NCBI GenBank assembly: GCA_024239075.1
Contig: JANBVI010000050.1
Location: forward strand, 1 to 64,000
DNA length: 64,000 nucleotides
From: Fischerella sp. CENA71
Lineage (GTDB): Bacteria; Cyanobacteriota; Cyanobacteriia; Cyanobacteriales; Nostocaceae
Direction of reading: 5' to 3'
Under the pieces are notes generated by a model, which was not told the origin of the DNA, searched no databases, and saw only the letters and a list, made by a program, of their open reading frames with translations. Of the stretch, positions 1-56,070 are shown one piece after another. The position numbers and the translations under genes were made by a program. The stretch's first letter is position 1; every line of letters begins with the position of its first letter.

Positions 1-121
1 ATGCACAGGGGAAAAGCAATAAACCAGACCATCCTACGAATACGAAGCGATCGCGCTTCAACCAGTCGTCGAGAACGTCAAACCACCCTCTGGTAGTACT
101 ACGTCCAATTGCGATGGTCAT
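1..121 (-). CDS. psbD: Photosystem II D2 protein, N-terminal part (cut by window edge)
   Basis: Read on the minus strand, an ATG at 119-121 opens a frame that runs off the window after 40 codons. The translation contains [20 protein letters not shown], the highly conserved start of the photosystem II reaction-centre protein D2, which binds chlorophyll, pheophytin and the QA plastoquinone in the thylakoid membrane. Only the N-terminal stromal tail and the beginning of the first membrane helix are present; the gene continues to the left of the window. It is divergent from ycf4, so both promoters must lie in 122-515. A GCGATCGC site falls inside the coding sequence. The fragment is short but the match to D2 is unmistakable. 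Confidence 0.95.
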
Positions 122-515
122 CGAACTAAAATCCTCTTTTTTACTAAAATTGCACGTTATTGAGGAATTAACGTTTTTTTGACACTACACAGATACTTTT
201 ATGTACCTGATTTTATGAGAAACTACTGCTAGATTCAGTCAGTTCTTCTCAGGGTTGTGTCACTACCCAATAACACCAGCTGTAAATTTAGCTAGTGATT
301 CCTTAATGCTTCTTAACTTATCATAATTTGTCTTGTTTTGTGCCTGATGCACCTGCGTAAATCAGGTATTTTGCACAGACCTATTAAATATTATCAATAT
401 CAGAAATTTTACAATTTGACACAACTTTTCTCAGAAATCTTAAAAGAAACTTGCAATAGATCCATAGACAGTGGCAGACTTTTAAAGGGAATTTATCAAA
501 CGCCAAGGTAGTTCC
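122..515. promoter_or_regulatory. Divergent psbD / ycf4 intergenic region
   Basis: This 394-bp AT-rich spacer separates the divergently transcribed psbD (minus) and ycf4 (plus), so it must carry both promoters and their leaders. It has poly-T and poly-A runs next to psbD (for example 137-142 and 173-180). I see no clear -10/-35 pair that can be named with confidence, and no open reading frame of interest. Light regulation of psbD is typical of the family but cannot be read from the sequence. Confidence 0.5.
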
Positions 516-1085
516 ATGACGACATCAACAACCATCAACAAAGACGAACGCGTCTTGCATCAAAAGGTTCTCGGTTCACGTCGGTTGAGTAACTACTGGT
601 GGGCAAGTATTGTAACTTTAGGTGCCACAGGCTTTTTCTTGGCTGCGCTATCCAGCTACCTACAAGTTAATTTACTCATAGTTACCGACCCAACTCAACT
701 TATTTTTGTCCCACAAGGATTGGTGATGGGATTGTACGGAGCAGCAGGTCTGCTTCTCGCTTTGTACCTGTGGTCAGTAATTCTCTTGGATGTGGGTGGC
801 GGATACAACGAGTTTAACCAGGAAACTGGCAAAGTCAAAATCTTCCGTTGGGGTTTTCCTGGCAAGAATCGTCGTATCGAACTTGACTTTAACACCCAAG
901 ATGTACAATCCGTACGAGTCCAGATCAAAGAAGGTCTAAATCCTCGTCGTACCCTCTACTTACGCGTCAAAGGTCGTCGAGATATTCCCCTAACAAGGGT
1001 AGGTCAACCGATGTCTTTAAAAGACTTGGAAATTCAAGGAGCAGAATTAGCTAGATTTCTGGGAGTACCTTTGGAAGGTTTGTAG
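516..1085 (+). CDS. ycf4: Photosystem I assembly protein Ycf4
   Basis: A 189-residue protein with two hydrophobic segments near residues 30-50 and 65-93, followed by a soluble basic domain that includes the Ycf4-type stretch GGGYNEFNQETGKVKIFRWG. Ycf4 is a thylakoid membrane factor that helps assemble the photosystem I reaction centre. Its length is the usual 180-190 residues, and the ATG start is the only sensible one. It lies head-to-head with psbD. The stop is followed by degenerate TTTGTCATT repeats rather than a clear terminator. Identification rests on family recognition over the whole length. Confidence 0.95.
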   Translation: MTTSTTINKDERVLHQKVLGSRRLSNYWWASIVTLGATGFFLAALSSYLQVNLLIVTDPTQLIFVPQGLVMGLYGAAGLLLALYLWSVILLDVGGGYNEFNQETGKVKIFRWGFPGKNRRIELDFNTQDVQSVRVQIKEGLNPRRTLYLRVKGRRDIPLTRVGQPMSLKDLEIQGAELARFLGVPLEGL

Positions 1086-1165
1086 GTTGCTTTTTGTCAT
1101 TTGTCATTGGTCATTTGTCATGGGTAAAAACTTTGGACTATTGACCATTGACGCTTGACTACTAA
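1086..1165. repeat. Short heptamer repeats (TTTGTCATTGG type)
   Basis: Several imperfect copies of TTTGTCATT / TTGGTCATT and TTGACCATTGACG follow the ycf4 stop. These are short tandemly repeated repetitive sequences common in filamentous cyanobacteria; the complementary form ATGACCAATGAC recurs at 45.7, 46.7 and 54.2 kb in this window. Confidence 0.7.
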
Positions 1166-1234
1166 ATTTCTACACATTACTCATACTCGCAATCAGAAGC
1201 TAAGATACACTGGTTGAGTCTATAGAACTAGCTA

Positions 1235-2053
1235 ATGCGGTTAAAATTTTCGGAGCTTTTGGTTGTATTTGTGATTGTCAGTGTCTTGATAGTGGGTGGG
1301 TGTTCGACACAACAAGTATCTTCTGACACTTCATCTACCACACCCACAGCCACGGAGGCAAGCACCAATACAACTACACAGGCGACAGCAGAAACAACTA
1401 CAGAAACAACTTCTGTATCTCAAGCTACACAAGAGGCTATTCCTGGAATGAAAGATTTACCAAGACTTGAAGGCAAAGCTACCGTGGTCATGACCGTCAA
1501 TGGTTCTCCAATTACCATTGAAGTAGATGGTACTAATGCCCCCATCACTGCTGGTAACTTTATAGACTTAGTACAACGTGGTGTATATGATGGTTTAGTT
1601 TTTCACCGAGTTGTGCGTCAACCCCAACCTTTTGTTGTCCAAGGTGGCGATCCCCAAAGTAAAGACCCAAAAGTAGCAGCTAACAGGTTAGGAACTGGTG
1701 GTTTTATTGATCCTAAAACAGGTAACGAGCGCTATATTCCCCTGGAAATTAAGCCTAAAGGAGCAGACGCCCCCATTTACGGCAAAACATTAGAATCGGC
1801 TCGTATCAATCAACCACCCGTGTTGACACATAAACTGGGTGCAGTCGCAATGGCGCGATCGCAAATGCCAGATTCTGCTTCTTCACAGTTTTACTTTGCC
1901 CTAGCTGACTTAGGCTTTCTAGATGGCAGCTACGCCGTATTTGGCTACGTCACAGAAGGTATGAATGTAGTAAACAAAATTCAGCAAGGCGATCGCATCG
2001 AATCAGCCAAAGTCACCCAAGGTGCAGAAAATTTGAAAAACGCTGGAAAATAG
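1235..2053 (+). CDS. Cyclophilin-type peptidyl-prolyl isomerase, lipoprotein
   Basis: A 272-residue protein. Residues 1-23 form a signal peptide ending in a lipobox (IVGGC), so it is probably lipid-anchored facing the periplasm or thylakoid lumen. A Thr/Ser-rich linker (about 25-75) follows, then a cyclophilin domain (about 80-265). Cyclophilin hallmarks are [20 protein letters not shown] and the SQFYFAL core with the active-site phenylalanine. Cyclophilins catalyse cis-trans isomerisation of prolyl bonds and assist folding of exported proteins. The ATG start is the one giving an intact signal peptide. The gene is followed within a few bases by the long GGGATC repeat block, so it is probably transcribed alone. 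Confidence 0.92.
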
Positions 2054-2202
2054 GGATCGGGGATCGGGGATCAGGGATCAGAGACCAGGAATGGGCAGAA
2101 ATTTCTTCCTTGTCCTCCTTGTCTTCCCTGTCTTCCTTATCCCTATTCCCCGATCCCCAATCCCCGATCCCCAATCCCCGATCCTCGATCCCCGATCCCC
2201 AA
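2052..2202. repeat. Inverted GGGGATC / GATCCCC repeat block
   Basis: Copies of GGGGATC(A/G) directly after the cyclophilin stop (2052-2085) are complementary to a run of GATCCCCAATCCCC units at 2150-2202, with a TCCTTGTC-rich stretch between. The two arms could form a very stable hairpin of about 30 bp. The block runs right up to the next gene and in one frame reads as a false N-terminal extension of it. Confidence 0.8.
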
Positions 2203-2205
2203 AAC

Positions 2206-3375
2206 TTGGTAGAAGTCGTTGTCACTGGTATTAGTTTAGTTTCTGCCTTAGGTCAAAACCTAGCAGATAGCTGGCAACAATTGCTAGCAGGTAAATCTGG
2301 GATTAAAATTTGTCAACCATTTCCAGAATTAGAACCACGTCCTCTTGGGTTAATTGACAAGCAACCAGCACAGTTGAGATTACTGACTCAACAGCTGGTT
2401 GCTTCTGCATTAAAAGATGCAGGATTAGTTTATCCTCTGCCAAATTGTGGCGTTGTCATTGGTTCGAGTCGCAGTCATCAGGCGACGTGGGAAGAGATGG
2501 CGAAAAATAGGTGGGCAGAGGAAATGGTAAATTCCAATCCCCAATCCCCGATCCCCGATCCCCGATCCCTAGATAATTGGCTAGACACCCTCCCACACAT
2601 GAATGCGATCGCAGCTGCGAGACAAATTGGTGCGACTGGGATTGTTTTAGCACCGATGGCGGCCTGTGCGACTGGTATTTGGGCGATCGCTCAAGCTACA
2701 TATTTGATTAAATCTGGACAATGTCAGCAAGTCATGACAGGAGCAACAGAAGCAGCAATTACGCCTCTGACTTTGACTGGCTTTCACAAGATGAGCGCCT
2801 TGGCTAAAACTGGGGCATATCCCTTCGATTTGCGTCGTGAAGGCTTAGTTTTAGGAGAAGGGGGAGCGATCTTGATTTTAGAATCGGCAGCATCAGCAAA
2901 ACAGCGCCAAGCCAAGGTGTATGGAAAGATACTTGGTTTTGGCTTAACAACAGATGCATATCATGCCAATACTCCAGAACCAGAAAGTCAGAGTGCGATC
3001 GCAGCAATTAAGCAATGTTTGCAACGCAGTCACTTAACGCCAAAAGACATTGATTATATCCATGCTCACGGTACGGCTACGCAAATTAACGATCAAGTAG
3101 AAAGCCAATTAATACAAAGCTTATTTTCTTCACAGGTGGCAGTTAGCTCTACGAAAGGAGCCACAGGGCATACTCTCGGAGCATCAGGAGCTTTAGGTGT
3201 AGCTTTTTCTCTGATGGCATTACAGCAGCAAATATTACCGCCATGTGTAGGCTTACAGCAACCAGAGTTTGATTTAAATCTGGTAAGAGAAGCACGTGAA
3301 AGTAAAGTTCAACGGGTATTGTGTTTTAGTTTTGGATTTGGAGGGCAAAATGCTGTCTTAGCACTAGAAAAATAA
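2206..3375 (+). CDS. Beta-ketoacyl-ACP synthase (KAS II / FabF-like)
   Basis: A thiolase-fold condensing enzyme for Claisen condensation of malonyl-ACP with an acyl chain. The catalytic triad is complete: Cys154 in AACATG, His288 in HAHGT and His322 in TGHTLGASGA. An open frame extends back to 2110, but that part is translated GATCCCC repeat, so I place the start at the TTG at 2206, where the usual VVVTG beginning of the family follows. No good ribosome-binding site is visible. The protein is 389 residues from that start, slightly shorter than housekeeping FabF. It stands alone, so it may serve a specialised lipid or polyketide rather than bulk fatty-acid synthesis (inference). A 12-residue Pro-rich insert encoded by repeat DNA lies at 2534-2570. 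Confidence 0.88.
   Translation: MVEVVVTGISLVSALGQNLADSWQQLLAGKSGIKICQPFPELEPRPLGLIDKQPAQLRLLTQQLVASALKDAGLVYPLPNCGVVIGSSRSHQATWEEMAKNRWAEEMVNSNPQSPIPDPRSLDNWLDTLPHMNAIAAARQIGATGIVLAPMAACATGIWAIAQATYLIKSGQCQQVMTGATEAAITPLTLTGFHKMSALAKTGAYPFDLRREGLVLGEGGAILILESAASAKQRQAKVYGKILGFGLTTDAYHANTPEPESQSAIAAIKQCLQRSHLTPKDIDYIHAHGTATQINDQVESQLIQSLFSSQVAVSSTKGATGHTLGASGALGVAFSLMALQQQILPPCVGLQQPEFDLNLVREARESKVQRVLCFSFGFGGQNAVLALEK
2534..2571. repeat. GATCCCC heptamers inside the ketosynthase gene
   Basis: The coding sequence contains tandem CCAATCCCC / CGATCCCC units identical in type to the block just upstream of the gene. They keep the frame open and encode a NPQSPIPDPRS-like segment, about residues 110-122, before NWLDTLPH. 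Confidence 0.85.
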
Positions 3376-3567
3376 AAATTCAAGATTTAATTTGCCTAAT
3401 TCAAAAAATAAATAACCCGTAAATTTTATTTACTAAATTTTACAAGTTAGTCTGTCAATTCTCTGTGATTTCAACAGATTTTGACTGACAAATGCTTCTT
3501 TTAGACGTCATTTAGATAAAATAGATATGATAATAAAAGTCGATAAAACTTAAAAATTATTTATCTA

Positions 3568-5016
3568 ATGCTGGTTTCCTCCTCTGGCTTGTCCAAGGTC
3601 AAAGAATCAATAAAAGAAAAAATTTTTTTTGGCAATGAACCAACAGCCGAATTAATTGCCATTCTTACCGTTTACTTTGTCCAAGGTATTTTGGGATTGG
3701 CACGTTTAGCAGTCAGCTTTTTTCTCAAAGATGAACTAGGACTAACTCCAGCCCAAGTATCAGCCCTAATGGGTATAGTTGCCATACCCTGGATTGTCAA
3801 ACCATTATTTGGTTTTATTTCTGATGGCTTCCCCATTTTTGGCTACAGACGACGACCATATTTGGTGTTATCGGGGATAATAGGAGCGGCTTCTTGGGTG
3901 AGCCTAGCCACAATTGTTCACACACCTGTAGTTGCAACAGCAGCGATCGCTCTTGGTTCGGTATCTGTTGCTGTGAGTGACGTCATCGTTGACTCATTAG
4001 TTGTAGAACGAGCCAGGGTAGAATCTCAGGCGGAAGCAGGTTCTTTACAATCTCTATGTTGGGGTGCTTCCGCCTTCGGTGGTTTGATAACTGCTTACTT
4101 TAGTGGTGTCCTCTTAGAGCATTTTAGTAATCGCACCGTATTTTGGATTACTGCCTCTTTTCCCCTCATAGTTTCAGCAGTAGCTTGGTTAATTGCTGAA
4201 TCCCCAGTCAAGCATGATATCAACACCAACAACAATCCCAACTTCCAATCAATCAAGTATCAAATTGGACAACTACGCCAAGCCATTACTCAAAAAGCAA
4301 TTTGGCTACCAACAGCATTTCTTTTCATCTGGCAAGCTACGCCAACTGCTGAATCAGCCTTTTTCTTCTTTACGACAAACGAATTACATTTTCAACCAGA
4401 ATTTTTAGGACGAGTACGCTTAGTGACAAGCGTTGCTTCCTTAGTAGGTATTTGGATCTTTCAACGTTTTCTTAAAACCGTCCCTTTTCGCGTCATTTTT
4501 GGCTGGAGTACTGTTCTTTCAGCCGCTTTAGGAATGACAATGTTGCTCCTGGTAACTCATACAAACCGGACTTTAGGCATTGATGATCATTGGTTTAGTT
4601 TGGGTGATAGCCTGATTCTTACCGTTATGGGACAAATTGCCTATATGCCAGTATTGGTGCTAGCAGCCAGACTTTGTCCATCGGGAGTAGAAGCAACATT
4701 ATTTGCCTTGTTAATGTCAGTTACTAACTTAGCAGGACTGCTTTCCTACGAGTTCGGTGCAGTATTGATGCATTGGTTTGGAATTACAGAAACAAACTTT
4801 GAAAAACTCTGGATTTTGGTAATTCTGACTAACTTCAGTACTTTGTTACCATTACCCTTTCTCAACTGGTTGCCTGCTGCTGAGTCTGAAACCGAAACAT
4901 CTAAGAATTTACCACCAACTTCAGTTCCGGATCATGAAGAATCTTTTGTACCCAATATGATGCCAGAGTTGATGCTGCGAGAACTAGAGTCAGAAGTAGT
5001 TAGGGATAGGGGATAG
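3568..5016 (+). CDS. Folate-biopterin transporter family (BT1) membrane carrier
   Basis: A 482-residue, 12-helix carrier of the major facilitator type. The motif region FISDGFPIFGYRRRPYL after the second helix pair and the SDVIVDSLVVERAR helix are characteristic of the BT1 folate-biopterin family found in kinetoplastids, plants and cyanobacteria; a Synechocystis member is reported to move folates. It sits in the cytoplasmic or possibly thylakoid membrane. The ATG at 3568 follows a long AT-rich leader. The last residues (VVRDRG) are encoded by the beginning of a GGGGATAGGGGATC repeat, suggesting that repeat entry reset the stop codon. Substrate is inferred from the family only. Confidence 0.88.
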   Translation: MLVSSSGLSKVKESIKEKIFFGNEPTAELIAILTVYFVQGILGLARLAVSFFLKDELGLTPAQVSALMGIVAIPWIVKPLFGFISDGFPIFGYRRRPYLVLSGIIGAASWVSLATIVHTPVVATAAIALGSVSVAVSDVIVDSLVVERARVESQAEAGSLQSLCWGASAFGGLITAYFSGVLLEHFSNRTVFWITASFPLIVSAVAWLIAESPVKHDINTNNNPNFQSIKYQIGQLRQAITQKAIWLPTAFLFIWQATPTAESAFFFFTTNELHFQPEFLGRVRLVTSVASLVGIWIFQRFLKTVPFRVIFGWSTVLSAALGMTMLLLVTHTNRTLGIDDHWFSLGDSLILTVMGQIAYMPVLVLAARLCPSGVEATLFALLMSVTNLAGLLSYEFGAVLMHWFGITETNFEKLWILVILTNFSTLLPLPFLNWLPAAESETETSKNLPPTSVPDHEESFVPNMMPELMLRELESEVVRDRG

Positions 5017-5165
5017 GGGATCGGGGATTGGAAACAGACGCGGTGACGCGGAGAGTAAAAGACGCGGAGAATCTATCAGAAATATTCTCTGTGTCCCTGT
5101 GTCGCTGTGTCCCTGTGTCCCTGTGTCCCTGTGTCCCTGTGTCCGTGTGTCCCCGTGTTCCTCTT
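5017..5165. repeat. Repeat block: GGGATC units and (CTGTGTCC)n
   Basis: After the carrier stop come GGGGATCGGGGATTGG units, a GACGCGG(T/A)GACGCGGAG stretch, and then about nine tandem copies of the octamer CTGTGTCC (about 5090-5160). Open frames read through the octamers on both strands are artefacts. Confidence 0.85.
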
Positions 5166-5193
5166 TCTTTATCCCCAATCCCATTTTTAAGAT

Positions 5194-6714
5194 ATGCAAA
5201 CTTTTGAAACTCAAAAACAAATTTCTCAAGTTTTCACCAAACCTTATAACCGTAACGATTGGCAAGGTGGATATAAATCTTTAAAACAAGAATTTGATTA
5301 TTGGATAGATGACATAGAAGGACGAATTCCACCAGAACTTAACGGTACTTTATTCAGAAATGGCCCTGGTTTGTTGGATATAAATGGGCAATTAATTCAT
5401 CATCCCTTTGATGGAGATGGGATGATTAGTCGCATAACTTTTGCAAATGGTCGCGCCCACTTCCGCAATCGCTTTGTCCGCACTGATGCGTATTTGGAAG
5501 AACAAAAAGCGGGTAAAATTCTCTATCGTGGTGTCTTTGGTACACAAAAACCAGGTGGTTGGCTAGCAAATGCCTTCGACTTTAAACTCAAAAATATTGC
5601 TAATACCAATGTTATCTACTGGGGTGAGAAACTGCTGGCTCTGTGGGAAGCAGCAGAACCTCATCGCCTTGATCCTCATACACTAGAAACCTTGGGTAGA
5701 GAATACTTTCACGGTGTGCTGTCAGAAGGTGAAGCATTTAGCGCCCATCCCCGTTTTGATCCAAGTTGTGAGTTCGACGGTGGTGAACCTTGTTTGGTAA
5801 ACTTTTCCATCAAAGCAGGACTATCCACAACTATTACTATTTTTGAGTTAGACACAACAGGCACTATTGTAAGAAAGCACGCCCATGATGTGCCGGGTTT
5901 CGCCTTTATTCACGATTTTGCTATTACCCCAAACTACTGCATATTTTTTCAAAATCCTGTGAGTTTCAATCCCATACCTTTTGTCTTAGGAATGCGTGGT
6001 GCAGGCGAATGTGTTAAGTTTCAACCCAATAAAACAACGCGAGTCATCATTATTCCTCGCCAAATCCCCCTAAAATCCCCCCTTGATAAGGGGAGACTAA
6101 AGGAGGTGCAAATTCTCGAAACTCACTCTGGTTTTGTTTTCCACCATGCCAATGCTTTTGAGCAAGGAAACGAGATTATTATTGATTCTATTTGCTACGA
6201 ATCCTTACTGGAAGTTGAACCAGAAAGTGATTTTCGACAGACTGATTTTGATGCTATCAAGCCTGGACAACTCTGGCGTTTTCACCTCAATCTCCAAGAC
6301 AAGACTGTACGGCGAAAATTGTTAGAAAGCCGTTGTTGTGAATTTCCGACTTTGCATCCTCAAAAAGTGGGGCGATCGCATCGTTATTTATATATTGGTG
6401 CTGCTCATGCTCCCAGTGGTAATGCTCCCTTACAAGCATTTTTGAAGATGGATCTTCACTCAGGAGAACGACAACTTTGGAGTGCTGCACCCAAAGGTTT
6501 TGCTAGCGAACCAGTGTTTGTACCCCGTCCCTATTCTCAAAGGGAAGACGATGGTTGGGTGTTAGCTTTGGTTTATGATGCCAGTTGCGATCGCTCAGAT
6601 GTAGTAATTCTAGATGCCTGTAATTTCAACCAAGGTCCAGTAGCAAGGCTACATCTTAAACATCATATTCCTTATGGTTTACACGGGAACTTTAGTTCTG
6701 AGTTGTTTGTGTGA
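5194..6714 (+). CDS. Carotenoid oxygenase (apocarotenoid-15,15'-oxygenase type)
   Basis: A 506-residue protein of the RPE65/carotenoid-cleavage family, a seven-bladed propeller with a non-haem iron held by four histidines. The ligands can be placed at His185 (SAHPRFDP), His240 (FIHDFAIT), His317 (FVFHHANAF) and His497 (GLHGNF). These match the spacing of Synechocystis apocarotenoid oxygenase (183, 238, 304, 484) except for about 11-13 extra residues between the second and third ligands. The extra residues coincide with a repeat inserted at 6061-6106. The expected reaction is cleavage of apocarotenals to retinal. The ATG start is good, and the gene is monocistronic between repeat-rich spacers. 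Confidence 0.92.
   Translation: MQTFETQKQISQVFTKPYNRNDWQGGYKSLKQEFDYWIDDIEGRIPPELNGTLFRNGPGLLDINGQLIHHPFDGDGMISRITFANGRAHFRNRFVRTDAYLEEQKAGKILYRGVFGTQKPGGWLANAFDFKLKNIANTNVIYWGEKLLALWEAAEPHRLDPHTLETLGREYFHGVLSEGEAFSAHPRFDPSCEFDGGEPCLVNFSIKAGLSTTITIFELDTTGTIVRKHAHDVPGFAFIHDFAITPNYCIFFQNPVSFNPIPFVLGMRGAGECVKFQPNKTTRVIIIPRQIPLKSPLDKGRLKEVQILETHSGFVFHHANAFEQGNEIIIDSICYESLLEVEPESDFRQTDFDAIKPGQLWRFHLNLQDKTVRRKLLESRCCEFPTLHPQKVGRSHRYLYIGAAHAPSGNAPLQAFLKMDLHSGERQLWSAAPKGFASEPVFVPRPYSQREDDGWVLALVYDASCDRSDVVILDACNFNQGPVARLHLKHHIPYGLHGNFSSELFV
6061..6106. repeat. Interspersed repeat inserted in frame in the carotenoid oxygenase gene
   Basis: The stretch begins CAAATCCCCCTAAAATCCCC, continues CTTGATAAGGGGAGAC, and resembles a widespread cyanobacterial interspersed repeat whose two ends (AATCCCC and GGGGAGA) are partly complementary. 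It reads as residues 290-305 (QIPLKSPLDKGRLKE) without breaking the frame. Confidence 0.8.
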
Positions 6715-7097
6715 GGTTTAAAGGCGTAGGGGTATAGGAGGATTTTGGGGGTGTAGCTAAAAAATTTAGAGCTATGCAAGGATATAGATTTCAAAAAACT
6801 ATTTTTGTCTTTTATTCCTTCACACTATCACATCCCCATACCCTTACACCCTGTCATACATAAACATAAAAAAGAAATGAACACAGATAATAAGTATAAT
6901 TTTTAATCTGTGTTCATCTATGTGTATCTCTGGTTACTCTATATTACTATCTTGAACTCGAGCAAAAAAAGCTACATCGCGAAATTTTGTAACATAAATT
7001 ACATAAATTATAGTTTTTCTCAAAAATAAACGTTAGCCTAGACATAGACCTCCGGTTCCATAGATTTTGTGGAAGCCTGATAGGAAGAGAAAAATCT
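6715..7097. other. Intergenic region before gdhA
   Basis: A 383-bp spacer with no credible gene. It contains G-rich GTAGGGGTATAGGAGG just after the oxygenase stop and a partly complementary CCCCATACCCTTACACCC at about 6835-6853, which together could form a stem and may terminate oxygenase transcription. A TCTGTGTTCATCTATGTG-type repeat lies near 6905. The gdhA leader at 7045-7097 ends with AGGAAGAG, a usable ribosome-binding site. Confidence 0.5.
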
Positions 7098-8387
7098 ATG
7101 ATTACAACTTCTATACAACCACTGGAAGCTTCTTCTCCAGCGTATATTTGCCCATTAGATCAAGCTTGTAGCTATTTGGAAGCAGCAGCACGAGAATTAA
7201 AGCTAGATTTAGGTCTGTTGCAGGTACTTAGTCATCCACGTAAGGTAGTTACAGTCTCCATTCCTGTAAAACGGGATAATGGCGAGATACAAATTTTAGC
7301 AGGACATCGAGTCCAACACTGTGATGTCTTGGGACCTTACAAAGGTGGCATTCGTTACCATCCAGCTGTGACGTTGCGGGAGGTATCAGCCCTAGCAATG
7401 CTAATGACTTGGAAATGTGCGTTACTAGGTATTCCTTACGGCGGTGCCAAAGGTGGTATTGCTCTCGATCCAAAACGTTACAGTGTGGGTGAATTAGAAC
7501 GGCTCACCCGACGATACACGAGCGAATTAATCAAGGATATTGGCCCTAGTGTAGACATCCCGGCACCAGATATGGGTACTTCTGCCCGTGAAATGGCTTG
7601 GATGATGGATACTTACTCTGTCAATGTTGGTCATGCTGTTCCGGGAGTTGTGACTGGAAAACCGCTATCTATTGGTGGTTCACTGGGACGGGAGATGGCA
7701 ACAGGACGTGGCGTAATGATTATTGTCAGGGAGGCACTAGCTGATCAGGGTAAGTCATTAGCAGATGTGCGAGTAGTTATCCAGGGTTTTGGTAACGTCG
7801 GTAGTGCAGCAGCTTTGTTAATGCATGAAGCAGGAGCGAAAGTGATAGCTGTATCGACTGGATCTGGAGGAGTTTATTCAGAAACTGGTCTTGATATTCC
7901 TAATTTGAAAGCCTATGCTTCTGAGAACCGTATGAGTGTGGTTGGCTTTCCACAAGCAATACCAATTAACAATGCAGAGTTACTAACTTTACCTTGTGAT
8001 GTCTTAATTCCCGCAGCTTTGGAAAACCAAATCACAGAAGACAATGTGAATCAAGTTCAAGCCAAGATAGTTGCAGAGGCGGCTAACGGGCCAGTGACTC
8101 TCATAGCTAACCAAGCGCTAGAGGCGCGTGGTGTAACTGTACTACCAGATATTTTGGCTAACGCGGGTGGTGTGGTAGTGAGTTATTTAGAGTGGGTACA
8201 AGGTCTTTCTTATTTATTTTGGGATGAGCAACGAGTCAACCGCGAATTGGAACACTTGATGGTACAAGCATATCGTCAAGTTATTAAGCATTCCAAAACA
8301 CGACAGATTCCTTTAAGACTCGCAGCTTATACGTTAGGGGTTGGTCGAGTTGCTCAAGCTTTAACTGATAGAGGTTTATATCCTTAA
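7098..8387 (+). CDS. gdhA: Glu/Leu/Phe/Val dehydrogenase (NAD(P) glutamate dehydrogenase)
   Basis: A 429-residue cytosolic hexameric-type dehydrogenase that interconverts glutamate with 2-oxoglutarate and ammonium. The substrate domain has the YKGGIRYHP block and the catalytic lysine region in GIPYGGAKGGI; PAPDMGT follows. The Rossmann domain begins at about residue 220 with VVIQGFGNVGS, and ANAGGVVVSYLEW closes the active site. Length and motifs fit the short hexameric class. An AGGAAGAG sequence 5-12 nt upstream supports the ATG. In cyanobacteria, where GS-GOGAT dominates nitrogen assimilation, this enzyme is accessory. The gene appears monocistronic. Confidence 0.93.
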   Translation: MITTSIQPLEASSPAYICPLDQACSYLEAAARELKLDLGLLQVLSHPRKVVTVSIPVKRDNGEIQILAGHRVQHCDVLGPYKGGIRYHPAVTLREVSALAMLMTWKCALLGIPYGGAKGGIALDPKRYSVGELERLTRRYTSELIKDIGPSVDIPAPDMGTSAREMAWMMDTYSVNVGHAVPGVVTGKPLSIGGSLGREMATGRGVMIIVREALADQGKSLADVRVVIQGFGNVGSAAALLMHEAGAKVIAVSTGSGGVYSETGLDIPNLKAYASENRMSVVGFPQAIPINNAELLTLPCDVLIPAALENQITEDNVNQVQAKIVAEAANGPVTLIANQALEARGVTVLPDILANAGGVVVSYLEWVQGLSYLFWDEQRVNRELEHLMVQAYRQVIKHSKTRQIPLRLAAYTLGVGRVAQALTDRGLYP

Positions 8388-8563
8388 CCATGTTTAATCT
8401 ATTGAATTAGCTTTTAAAGACAAAGCTACTCTGTATTATTCTGTCAGCTAACTTGCTAATAGATACTGTTGATTAAGTTTGTCATGACGATCACGTCAGC
8501 GACTACTCTGTTAATGATAAATATTTTCCTTGGACGTACACTTCAGCTCAATCCCATCTATTA

Positions 8564-8594
8564 AGCGCTCAGTTCAATAGAAGAACTGAGCGCT
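8564..8594 (-). terminator. Perfect hairpin, likely terminator of the truncated 5S locus
   Basis: AGCGCTCAGTTC (8564-8575) pairs perfectly with GAACTGAGCGCT (8583-8594) around a 7-nt loop. It lies about 45 nt beyond the 3' end of the minus-strand 5S fragment, where an rRNA operon terminator would be expected. It could alternatively serve gdhA coming from the other side. Confidence 0.55.
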
Positions 8595-8638
8595 ATTTTA
8601 CACCAAAAAGATAGGAGGCTTATGGAAAGAAAAAAAGT

Positions 8639-8737
8639 CCTGGCATCGAGCTATTTTGACGGTCGGCAACCCGACAACTATCGTCGCCGCAGCAGCGTTT
8701 CACAACTGAGTTCGGGAAGGGTTCAGAGTGGTTCCAC
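8639..8737 (-). rRNA. rrf: 5S ribosomal RNA, 5'-truncated copy
   Basis: The minus strand reads GGAACCACTCTGAACCC, then CCGAACTCAGTTGTGAAACG, CTGCGGCGACGATAGTTG, and ends CAAAATAGCTCGATGCCAGG, the conserved body and 3' end of bacterial 5S rRNA, immediately followed by a T-rich stretch. About 18-20 nt that should form the 5' strand of helix I are missing, so the closing stem cannot form and the RNA would not be functional. The break coincides with the beginning of a truncated ROK kinase frame. No 23S or 16S sequence is present in the window. Either this is a real deletion/recombination joining an rRNA operon to a kinase gene, or an assembly misjoin at a multicopy rRNA operon. Confidence 0.9.
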
Positions 8738-9453
8738 CTATTGCTATTGGTGTTGGTACTCCCGGCCCAGCGGATGCAACTAGGCGGATTGCCAAATTAG
8801 CTATTACCCTGCCAGGATGGGTTGATGTTCCTTTGGCGGAGGCTTTAGAAGCGAAAACAGGCAAACCAACTATCCTTGATAATGACGCCAATTGTGCAGG
8901 TTTGGGAGAAGCTTGGTTAGGAACCGGTCGCCACTTTCAAAATATTATCTTGTTAACTTTGGGGACTGGTGTTGGTGGAGCAATTTTTATTGATGGTAAA
9001 TTATTTGCCGGTCATTATGGTGCTGCTGGGGAATTGGGTTTAATCACATTTAACCCAGATGGACACGTATGTAAGAGTGGTAACAAAGGTTCGTTAGAAC
9101 AACAGGTTTCAATTACAGCAATTCGTCGCCGCACAGGGAAAGATCCTTCTGAATTAGGCATTTTGGCACAAGCTGGAGACAACGACGCCTTAAATTTTTG
9201 GCAAGAATACGGTAGATACTTAGGTATTGGTTTAACAAGTTTAATTTACGTACTGACACCACAGGCGATCGTTATTGGTGGCGGTGTCAGTGCTAGCGCT
9301 AACTTTTTTTTACCAGCAGCCAAAGCAGAAATCGAGAAACGAGTTTTGCCTACATCTCGCCTAGATTTACAAATCATACCAGCCGAATTAGGTAATACTG
9401 CGGGAATGCTGGGTGCAGCGAGGTTGGCGTGGGGGATGGTGGAGAGAAAATAA
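8728..9453 (+). pseudogene. ROK-family sugar kinase (glucokinase type), N-terminus missing
   Basis: The frame encodes the catalytic and C-terminal parts of a ROK kinase: GVGTPGPAD, the DNDANCAGLGEAW block with the catalytic Asp, TLGTGVGGAIFIDGKL, and IVIGGGVSAS. Complete ROK kinases have about 300 residues and begin with a DLGGTxxK phosphate-binding loop. Here about 55 N-terminal residues, including that loop, are absent. The first codons of the 241-residue frame (GTG at 8728) are 5S rRNA sequence read on the opposite strand. ATP binding should be lost, so I call it a fragment. It may be intact in the true chromosome if the junction is an assembly error. Confidence 0.85.
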
Positions 9454-16735: not shown

Positions 16736-17090
16736 TATCTGTTTTTAGTAAGTGAAAACATAATTTTGAGGTTATTAACTAAAATTTTCGTGTGAATATA
16801 GAAGTTAATTATCCCTGACTGATTAAAGAAGTCGGGGATCACATTTTTCAGAGATTATTTATGACTTCTATGATAAAGAACTTGTGTGTATTTTTGTTGA
16901 TTTTTCGCTCAGAGAAACTAAATAAGATATACCTATTTCTTTAGATGGAGATGCTATTTCTCCCAATGGTATATATGCAAATTCATCCAAGCGATTGATG
17001 AATAATTAATCACAAATAAAGCTTAATAGAGCTAAGTTACATGCGTCAAATTCACTTTAAAAAATAAATAAATTTTTGGTGGTAAGAAAT
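16736..17090. other. Spacer with terminator-like hairpin
   Basis: ATCCCTGACT (16811-16820) pairs with AGTCGGGGAT (16830-16839), one G-U pair, followed by CACATTTTT. This is the likely end of the kinase/DOMON transcript. The rest of the 355-bp region is AT-rich and shows no gene. The next gene starts at 17091 after a weak GGTGGTAAGAA. Confidence 0.5.
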
Positions 17091-19136
17091 ATGGTTGTAG
17101 GTATACACAGACGTGCTGTAGGAGTTTTTTCTCATCGTCGTGATGCAGAAGCAGCTCTACATGAATTAAGAGATGCTGGTTTTCCTATGGACAGAGTCTC
17201 TGTCGTCGCACGCGATGTTGATCGCAATGATCAAATTGCTGGTACAGAAGTAACAGAAAACATTGGTAATAAAGCTGATGAAGGAGCAGCAACCGGGGCT
17301 GTTTCTGGTGGTGTTTTAGGTGGATTGACTGGTTTATTAGTTGGTCTTGGTACTTTGGCAATTCCGGGAATTGGCCCAATTATGCTGGCTGGTGCAGTAG
17401 CTACTACTTTGGCTACAACTTTAGCAGGGGCTGGAATTGGTGCTGTAGCTGGTGGTTTGCTTGGTGCTTTGATTGGTTTAGGAATTCCCGAAGAACGTGC
17501 CAGAGTATATAATGAACGAGTAGATAGAGGACATTACTTAGTAATCATAGATGGCACAGATGAGGAAATTGCTAGAGCTGAAGCAATTCTTAGACGTCGA
17601 GGAATAGAAGAGTTTGAAGTCTATGATATACCTGTTGGTACAGCAAATTATACCCCTACCCCTGGTGTAACTCACAAACACGCGATTGGTTATTTCTCTC
17701 GTCTAGAAGATGCGGAAGCTGCAATAAATGATTTGCGGACTGCGGGTTTCCCCTTGGGTCAAATTTCCTTGATTAACAGAGATTGGTCACGACGCGATCG
17801 CTTTGCGGGAGTTACTTTACGCGATCGCTTTGATGATACTATTAACAACCTGAAATTGCGACTTCCAGATCATCGTAGTCGTTTCTATCATGAGCGCATC
17901 AATCACGGTGATTATGTAGTTGTTGTGAGCGGTACAGATGCGGAAATTCAACGTGCTGCTGCGATTCTCAATCGTCATGGAATTCGAGATTGGGAAATTT
18001 TCGACCCCACAGTAGATTACGCTGCTACTCCTAGTCGAGATCTGGGTGTAACCCACAAACACGCCATTGGTTATTTCTCTCGTCTAGAAGATGCGGAAGC
18101 TGCAATTCATGATTTGCGGACTGCGGGTTTCCCCTTGGGTCAAATTTCCTTGATTAACAGAGATTGGTCACGACGCGATCGCTTTGCGGGAGTGACTTTA
18201 CGCGATCACTTTGATGATACTATTAACAACCTGAGATTGCGACTTCCAGATCATCGCAGTCGTTTCTATCATGAGCGCATCAATCATGGTGATTATGTAG
18301 TAGTTGTCAGTGGTACAGATGCGGAAATTCAACGTGCTGCTGCGATTCTCAATCGTCATGGAATTCGAGATTGGGAAATTTTCGACCCCACAGTAGATTA
18401 CGCTGCTACCCCTGCGCGAAATGTAGTAAATACACCAGTTTCTGGTTACGGTACAACACCTTTACACAGAAATAGAAGAGCAATTGGCGTATTTTCTCAT
18501 CGTCGAGATGCAGAAGTAGCACTCATGGAACTGAGAGACTCTGGATTTCCGATGAACCAAGTATCTCTGATTGCGAAAGATAGTGGCGATCGCCTTCCTG
18601 GTGTAAATACAGGTGTGGGTGTAAATCAGAACAATGTAGCAGCACAAACCAAAGCTGATGAAGGTGCAAAAGCAGGAGCAGCTACAGGCGGAGTGTTGGG
18701 TGGTTTAGGAGGGTTATTAGTTGGTTTGGGAGCCTTAGCCATTCCGGGAGTCGGCCCTGTAATTGCAGGTGGTGCTATAGCAACAGCTTTAGCAACAACT
18801 GTTGCAGGTGGTGCGATTGGTGCTGCTGCTGGCGGTTTAACAGGTGGACTAATTGGCTTGGGAATTCCTGAAAACCGGGCGCGCTTGTATAGCGATCGCT
18901 TCAACAGAGGTGATTATTTAGTGATGGTAGATGGTACTGATGAGCAAATCCATCATGCAGAAGCCATTCTCAAGCGCTGCGGAATTACAGACTTTGACAT
19001 TTTTGATGCTACTGATATAAACCGTACACATCACGCTGCATCAGTTACTGATACCAGTCAAACCACCTATTCACCAGAATTAGGAGTCGAAGATCCGAAG
19101 GTCATTATTGTTGATCGTCGGGAAGAAAAAATCTAA
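17091..19136 (+). CDS. General stress protein with duplicated YflT-like and glycine-zipper domains
   Basis: About 681 residues. The order is a YflT/GS17M-type module (GVFSHRRDAEAALHELRDAG), a Gly/Ala-rich membrane-inserting zipper (about 63-135), two nearly identical 127-residue YflT modules with no zipper (from about residues 192 and 319), and a last YflT module with a second zipper (about 525-580). Each module carries the hallmark (V/I)GYFSxxxDAE or FSHRRDAE, then YLV/YVVVVSGTDEEI. Function of the family is unknown; members accumulate in stress. The two central copies differ by a handful of bases over about 370 bp, evidence of a recent tandem duplication. A GTG at 17076 is an alternative start. 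Confidence 0.82.
   Translation: MVVGIHRRAVGVFSHRRDAEAALHELRDAGFPMDRVSVVARDVDRNDQIAGTEVTENIGNKADEGAATGAVSGGVLGGLTGLLVGLGTLAIPGIGPIMLAGAVATTLATTLAGAGIGAVAGGLLGALIGLGIPEERARVYNERVDRGHYLVIIDGTDEEIARAEAILRRRGIEEFEVYDIPVGTANYTPTPGVTHKHAIGYFSRLEDAEAAINDLRTAGFPLGQISLINRDWSRRDRFAGVTLRDRFDDTINNLKLRLPDHRSRFYHERINHGDYVVVVSGTDAEIQRAAAILNRHGIRDWEIFDPTVDYAATPSRDLGVTHKHAIGYFSRLEDAEAAIHDLRTAGFPLGQISLINRDWSRRDRFAGVTLRDHFDDTINNLRLRLPDHRSRFYHERINHGDYVVVVSGTDAEIQRAAAILNRHGIRDWEIFDPTVDYAATPARNVVNTPVSGYGTTPLHRNRRAIGVFSHRRDAEVALMELRDSGFPMNQVSLIAKDSGDRLPGVNTGVGVNQNNVAAQTKADEGAKAGAATGGVLGGLGGLLVGLGALAIPGVGPVIAGGAIATALATTVAGGAIGAAAGGLTGGLIGLGIPENRARLYSDRFNRGDYLVMVDGTDEQIHHAEAILKRCGITDFDIFDATDINRTHHAASVTDTSQTTYSPELGVEDPKVIIVDRREEKI
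17664..18415. repeat. 381-bp tandem duplication within the stress-protein gene
   Basis: The segment starting GGTGTAACTCACAAACACGC at 17664 is repeated from 18045 with only scattered single-base differences (for example AATAAATGAT versus AATTCATGAT, CGCGATCGC versus CGCGATCAC). The period is 381 bp, or 127 codons, so the frame is kept. Confidence 0.9.
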
Positions 19137-55904: not shown

Positions 55905-56070
55905 GGATTGGGGATTGGGGATTGGGGAGGGGATCAGGGATCGGGGACAAGGGAGCAGGAAGTGTGGGGAAGGAAGTGTGAGGAGTGTGGGGGGAATTAT
56001 TTAACAAGTCTCTTCCCAATCCCCAATCCCCAATCCCCAATCCCCAATCCCCAATCCCCAATCCCCAATA
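55905..56070. repeat. Inverted (GGGGATT)n / (AATCCCC)n array
   Basis: GGGGATTGGGGATTGGGGATT directly after the protease stop is complementary to about eight tandem TCCCCAA units at 56020-56070, with GGGGACAAGGGAGCAGG and GGAAGTGTGAGGAGTGTGG between. It separates the protease from the serpin gene. Confidence 0.92.

Follow-up and report, generated by a model that had tools for sequence, protein, structure and literature searches.

The apparent fusion of a truncated 5S rRNA gene with a beheaded ROK-family sugar kinase is, on sequence comparison, almost certainly an artefact, an assembly chimera that arose at one copy of a repeated rRNA gene, rather than part of the strain's biology. The window, the whole stretch of 64,000 nucleotides that was analysed, corresponds to positions 1-64000 of contig C50 (JANBVI010000050.1) in an assembly (G000) of 7.47 Mb and 95 contigs. 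The features under study are collected in Table 1.

Table 1. Features on both sides of the junction in the window.
Feature	Position	Strand	Basis and remarks
gdhA-type glutamate dehydrogenase (PF00208/PF02812)	7098..8387	+	ORF list, Pfam; convergent with the 5S gene, part of the left piece
Inverted repeat AGCGCTCAGTTC...GAACTGAGCGCT between gdhA and 5S, putative terminator	8564..8594	.	By-eye reading
121-bp word common to the end of C57 and the start of C29	8618..8738	-	5S model position 18 to the 3' end, plus the first downstream bases
5S rRNA without its first 17 nt	8638..8738	-	Rfam, comparison with C57 and C29; 5' end expected where the kinase starts, 8739
Spurious start of the mechanical ORF 8728-9453	8728..8738	+	ORF list; GTG in antisense 5S
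Blunt junction, very probably chimeric	8738..8739	.	Base 8738 (C) alone common to both parents
ROK-family sugar kinase (PF00480), about codon 60 to stop, N-terminus absent	8739..9453	+	Pfam, DNA of relatives

The two parents meet without any transition. Beyond 8738, contig C57, which carries an intact copy of the 5S gene, reads GCGCCATAG..., whereas the window reads TATTGCTATT...; at the point of departure from 5S, 8739, C57 continues with GCGCCATAGACACC and the window with TATTGCTATTGGTG. Identity to the kinase locus of Westiellopsis prolifica IICB1 (L233), counted in 50-base bins, jumps from 12-14/50 left of the junction to 47/50 right of it, so the switch is blunt. No run of N stands at the join 8738/8739. 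The original prediction had both partners cut at a single junction near 8738, which is what was found, with 5S sequence up to 8738 and kinase sequence from 8739. Microhomology-mediated deletion was considered as an origin of the junction and rejected; the parents share a single base there (8738), with no inserted sequence between them.

On the minus strand, the window scores 39.9 bits as 5S rRNA over 8757-8638 (Rfam, RF00001), close to the gathering score of 38. This low score goes with a replaced 5' end: kinase sequence stands in place of the first 17 nt of 5S, and several pairs of the closing stem are flagged as non-standard. The sole other 5S gene among the matches listed in the assembly (best 150 of 203 candidates scored), at C57:196829-196946, reaches 71.3 bits. 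Over the 121 bp of window positions 8618-8738, identity to C57 is 100%. The loss can be located by comparing the start of the C57 gene (196829) with the start of the shared word (196846), and the 5S copy of contig C29, cut at the same base as the window copy, matches model positions 18-120. The minus-strand 5S had been predicted to lack about 18-20 nt at its 5' end, a claim that holds with the figure set at 17 nt by the comparison with C57 and C29.

To place the junction in the context of the assembly, both ends of all 95 contigs (190 ends) were taken, of which 160 were usable. The remaining 30 belong to 15 small contigs of 1.0-2.8 kb whose letters are all N and were left out of the end comparison; 4,000 bases of C72 are also N. 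Contig-end words that recur inside other contigs represent mixed repeat copies and were excluded from the argument. Among the usable ends, seven pairs form exact end-to-end dovetails of at least 25 bp, and all seven overlap by exactly 121 bp. Forty-seven end pairs have a common start of at least 25 bp: 22 share 121 bp, 22 share 118-120 bp and three share 32-33 bp, with none above 121. Such end overlaps are what is expected from a graph assembler with a 121-base overlap between its pieces.

The end of C57 and the start of C29 make up one of the seven dovetailing pairs, and they do so at the 5S word of the window. The first base of C29 corresponds to window position 8738; from there C29 and the window agree for exactly 121 bases and diverge at 8617, while the end of C57 is the base paired with 8618. 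The junction therefore stands exactly one overlap length (8738 to 8618, 121 bases) from the point where the repeat copies diverge, and other contigs end at the same edges, with C29 starting at 8738 and C57 ending at 8618. The piece carrying gdhA would accordingly be a second exit from this collapsed 5S gene, and under the 121-base rule its end had to fall at 8738. The 121-base start of the kinase side is absent from every other usable contig end. The edge of the right-hand piece is thus unexplained by the overlap rule and must be a dead or trimmed end; its partner piece could sit in the 15 small N contigs or in the 4,000 N bases of C72.

The rRNA operon itself is present elsewhere in the assembly. 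C57 holds a continuous 16S-tRNA-tRNA-23S-5S operon with an intact 5S gene, so at least one intact 23S-5S junction exists in the genome; such a junction had been proposed as something to look for outside the window. Four 5S genes each are listed in two congeners (G003 and G004), compared with one whole and two cut copies here. The regions downstream of the 5S genes of G003 map to C64, C70 and C78 of the present assembly (best 40 candidates scored for each), apart from one repeat-like match of 139 bp at C50:12032-12170, right of the junction. The flank on C29 matches the loci L062 and L063. None of the listed 5S-flank matches falls in window positions 1-8738.

Gene order in relatives does not carry across the junction. 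Right of 8738 the window is colinear with the kinase loci of relatives, in one case (L234) to 19.8 kb, where the L234 locus ends. In one set of 29 kinase loci of relatives, no window alignment starts left of 8736, and a set of six named loci (L231-L236) has no match longer than 150 bp left of 8738. In the 6.7-Mb scaffold of G004, gdhA (C1:2446616) and the kinase (C1:1358427) lie 1.09 Mb apart; in G003 they are on different contigs. The idea that a 5S gene normally lies beside this kinase was also tested, and discarded: in G003 and G004 the 5S genes are found elsewhere, and what precedes the kinase in the five closest loci inspected (L007-L011) is a permease and a small gene (gene kinds judged by eye). 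Two further genomes are uninformative on this adjacency, G001 having no 5S match and G002 a single one at a contig end.

At the DNA level, plus-strand identity from 8739 onwards to the ROK kinase genes of L231-L236, the six nearest named relatives, is 88-96%. At the protein level, the nearest named relatives of the kinase part are W. prolifica IICB1, Fischerella muscicola SAG 1427-1, Fischerella sp. PCC 9431 and Pelatocladus maniniholoensis HA4357-MV3, with 92-96% identity, which points to a Fischerella-like cyanobacterium as the source. The DLGGT motif is the N-terminal ATP-binding loop of ROK kinases. It is found in nine of the ten named relatives inspected (L231-L240), the remaining one reading DVGGT, and in L231-L236 the frame holds 63-70 in-frame codons, DLGGT included, between the upstream stop and the position of the junction. 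The kinase in the window has no such part and no complete domain: the PF00480 profile is covered from 58 to 291 of 294, compared with 1-292 in Fischerella sp. PCC 9431 (L231). The orthologues of PCC 9431 and of W. prolifica IICB1, which are 93% and 96% identical to the part present, respectively, both have the N-terminal DLGGT part. The absence of the ATP-binding loop and the opening of the kinase frame inside the 5S gene had both been called from the sequence, and both stand. The GTG at 8728 is meaningless as a start, being no more than a by-product of the kinase frame running open into antisense 5S.

The missing left side of the kinase points to a different contig. DNA of G003 from upstream of the kinase (L009:2-1560) was compared with the assembly. 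Over the first 1021 bases this DNA aligns with C76:193508-194545 at 92% identity, and its last 59 bases match the window from 8738. Past base 1040 and up to 1500, nothing was found among the matches listed (best 40 of 577 candidates scored); bases 870-1040 also match scattered short repeats. C76 ends at 194549, inside an array of ATCCCCA units. In all five relatives measured (L231-L235), the end of the C76 homology and the junction position are separated by 588-779 bp, a stretch that includes the kinase N-terminus. The corresponding stretch of L232 (587 bp) gave zero matches in 157 stretches of the strain's own genome totalling 1.62 Mb. That of L233 (614 bp) gave short repeat matches only against the same 157 stretches: the 12 listed all lie in its first 55 bases, and 0 of 32 extend beyond base 250. 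A kinase N-terminus elsewhere in the assembly, which the original prediction had suggested searching for, was accordingly not found in the sequence searched.

Judged from these alignments, the true left neighbour of the kinase should be the permease block of C76, followed by a gap expected to hold a small gene and the N-terminus. The N-terminus presumably lies in that gap or in one of the N contigs, and has not been deleted. The true neighbours of both halves are thereby found at other contig ends, the 23S-5S continuity at the end of C57 and the upstream block of the kinase at the end of C76. Arrays of 7-bp units like those of C76 (L047 1080-1150) also occur in the window at 2139-2202 and 56015-56069, and such arrays may break this assembly elsewhere too.

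The following course of events accounts best for these observations. In a de Bruijn-type assembly with 121-base overlap, a multicopy rRNA operon would collapse into one path, here C57, with a fork just beyond 5S that offers two or more ways out, among them C29 and the gdhA piece (window 1-8738). This would place the end of the gdhA piece at 8738, 121 bases short of the fork. The other piece would begin within the ROK kinase at 8739 and run to the right, its left end having been left open by the assembler with a tandem-repeat gap beyond it, and a scaffolding or gap-closing step would have joined both pieces without Ns. The real genome would then have a 5S gene that runs on into 23S rRNA, and a kinase complete with its N-terminus and preceded by the permease block of C76. 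Edge positions, contig ends and synteny were observed directly; the type of assembler and the joining step we infer.

According to the riboSeed report (PMC6009695), rDNA repeats are problematic in short-read assembly and can be collapsed or joined incorrectly. The present case resembles a collapsed rRNA-operon repeat with misjoined flanks in a short-read (de Bruijn graph) assembly, with the multicopy operon as one path, overlaps of fixed length and a flank placed on an unrelated locus. It differs from collapsed-rRNA misjoins in that the wrong partner is the middle of an unrelated gene instead of an rRNA flank, and in the lack of Ns.

Two readings had been offered originally, a contig misjoined at a multicopy rRNA operon and a real deletion that fused both genes. 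The 121-bp edge, the end of C76 and the synteny of relatives all speak strongly for the former. Under the latter, a deletion or rearrangement would have removed 23S-16S together with the DNA upstream of the kinase and its N-terminus, so that what is left of 5S would abut a broken kinase. The contig is indeed continuous without Ns, the DNA supposed to be deleted was not found in the assembly sequence searched, and rearrangement of the region is conceivable, since synteny in the left piece breaks off at 8468. However, the breakpoint of such a deletion would have hit the assembler edge by chance, and falling exactly on the 121-base edge would be about a 1-in-100 coincidence in a gene of about 118 nt by our estimate. 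Moreover, the kinase flank is missing just where a contig stops inside a tandem repeat, and after a real fusion C57 and C29 would be each other's sole remaining partners among the usable ends, yet they were left unjoined.

The conservation of the kinase also bears on a deletion. In 56 of 59 other genomes the best match falls within an open frame of 295 aa or more, so loss of the kinase would be unusual. One of the 56 (G045) has a TAG inside the kinase match; the exceptions are a fragment in G010, a distant relative only in G037 and a 277-aa frame in G051. Taken with the coincidences above, a deletion is very improbable; if a deletion or recombination inside 5S were nevertheless true, one rRNA operon and a sugar kinase would have been lost together. 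Still less credible, to the point of being negligible, is a decayed 5S pseudogene that came to lie beside the kinase by chance. Its low Rfam score of 39.9 bits would suit decay, but the intact C57 copy has the very same 121 bp before the junction, no decay is visible, and this candidate was rejected.

With an assembly chimera as the preferred reading, the ORF at 8728-9453 should be annotated neither as a pseudogene nor as a loss of the kinase in the strain. Nor should any use be made of the gene order gdhA-kinase; the contig needs to be split at 8738/8739. The importance of the finding is one of quality control only. Asking whether a suspect junction falls on the edge of a contig-end overlap of fixed length can indicate a misjoin without reads.

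The left piece has features of its own. The gene at 7098..8387, which we take to be gdhA, faces the 5S gene across an inverted repeat that probably serves as a two-way terminator. Homology of the gdhA region to three congeners (G002, G003 and G004) stops at 8468, 150 bases before the 5S word, G001 giving no match, and in the 39 other genomes searched nothing matches 8440-8645. As none of the usable contig-end words falls at 8468, the position of gdhA beside an rRNA operon may be the true arrangement of the strain, possibly the product of a strain-specific rearrangement that placed an rRNA operon behind gdhA. This arrangement is without bearing on the junction at 8738. The genes found downstream of gdhA in relatives are on C20:267488-270909, 6-9 kb from the end of C20 that carries the word of window positions 1-121. 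That word reads inward from the C20 end, and the left edge of the window is itself a repeat branch.

Farther to the right, window positions 17076-19136 hold an ORF of 686 aa in which repeat domains alternate with glycine-rich stretches (by-eye reading). It contains an internal tandem duplication of 381 bp (17664-18413, two copies, 96% matches), and the relative L234 also aligns to 17076-19136, in the form of overlapping repeat alignments.
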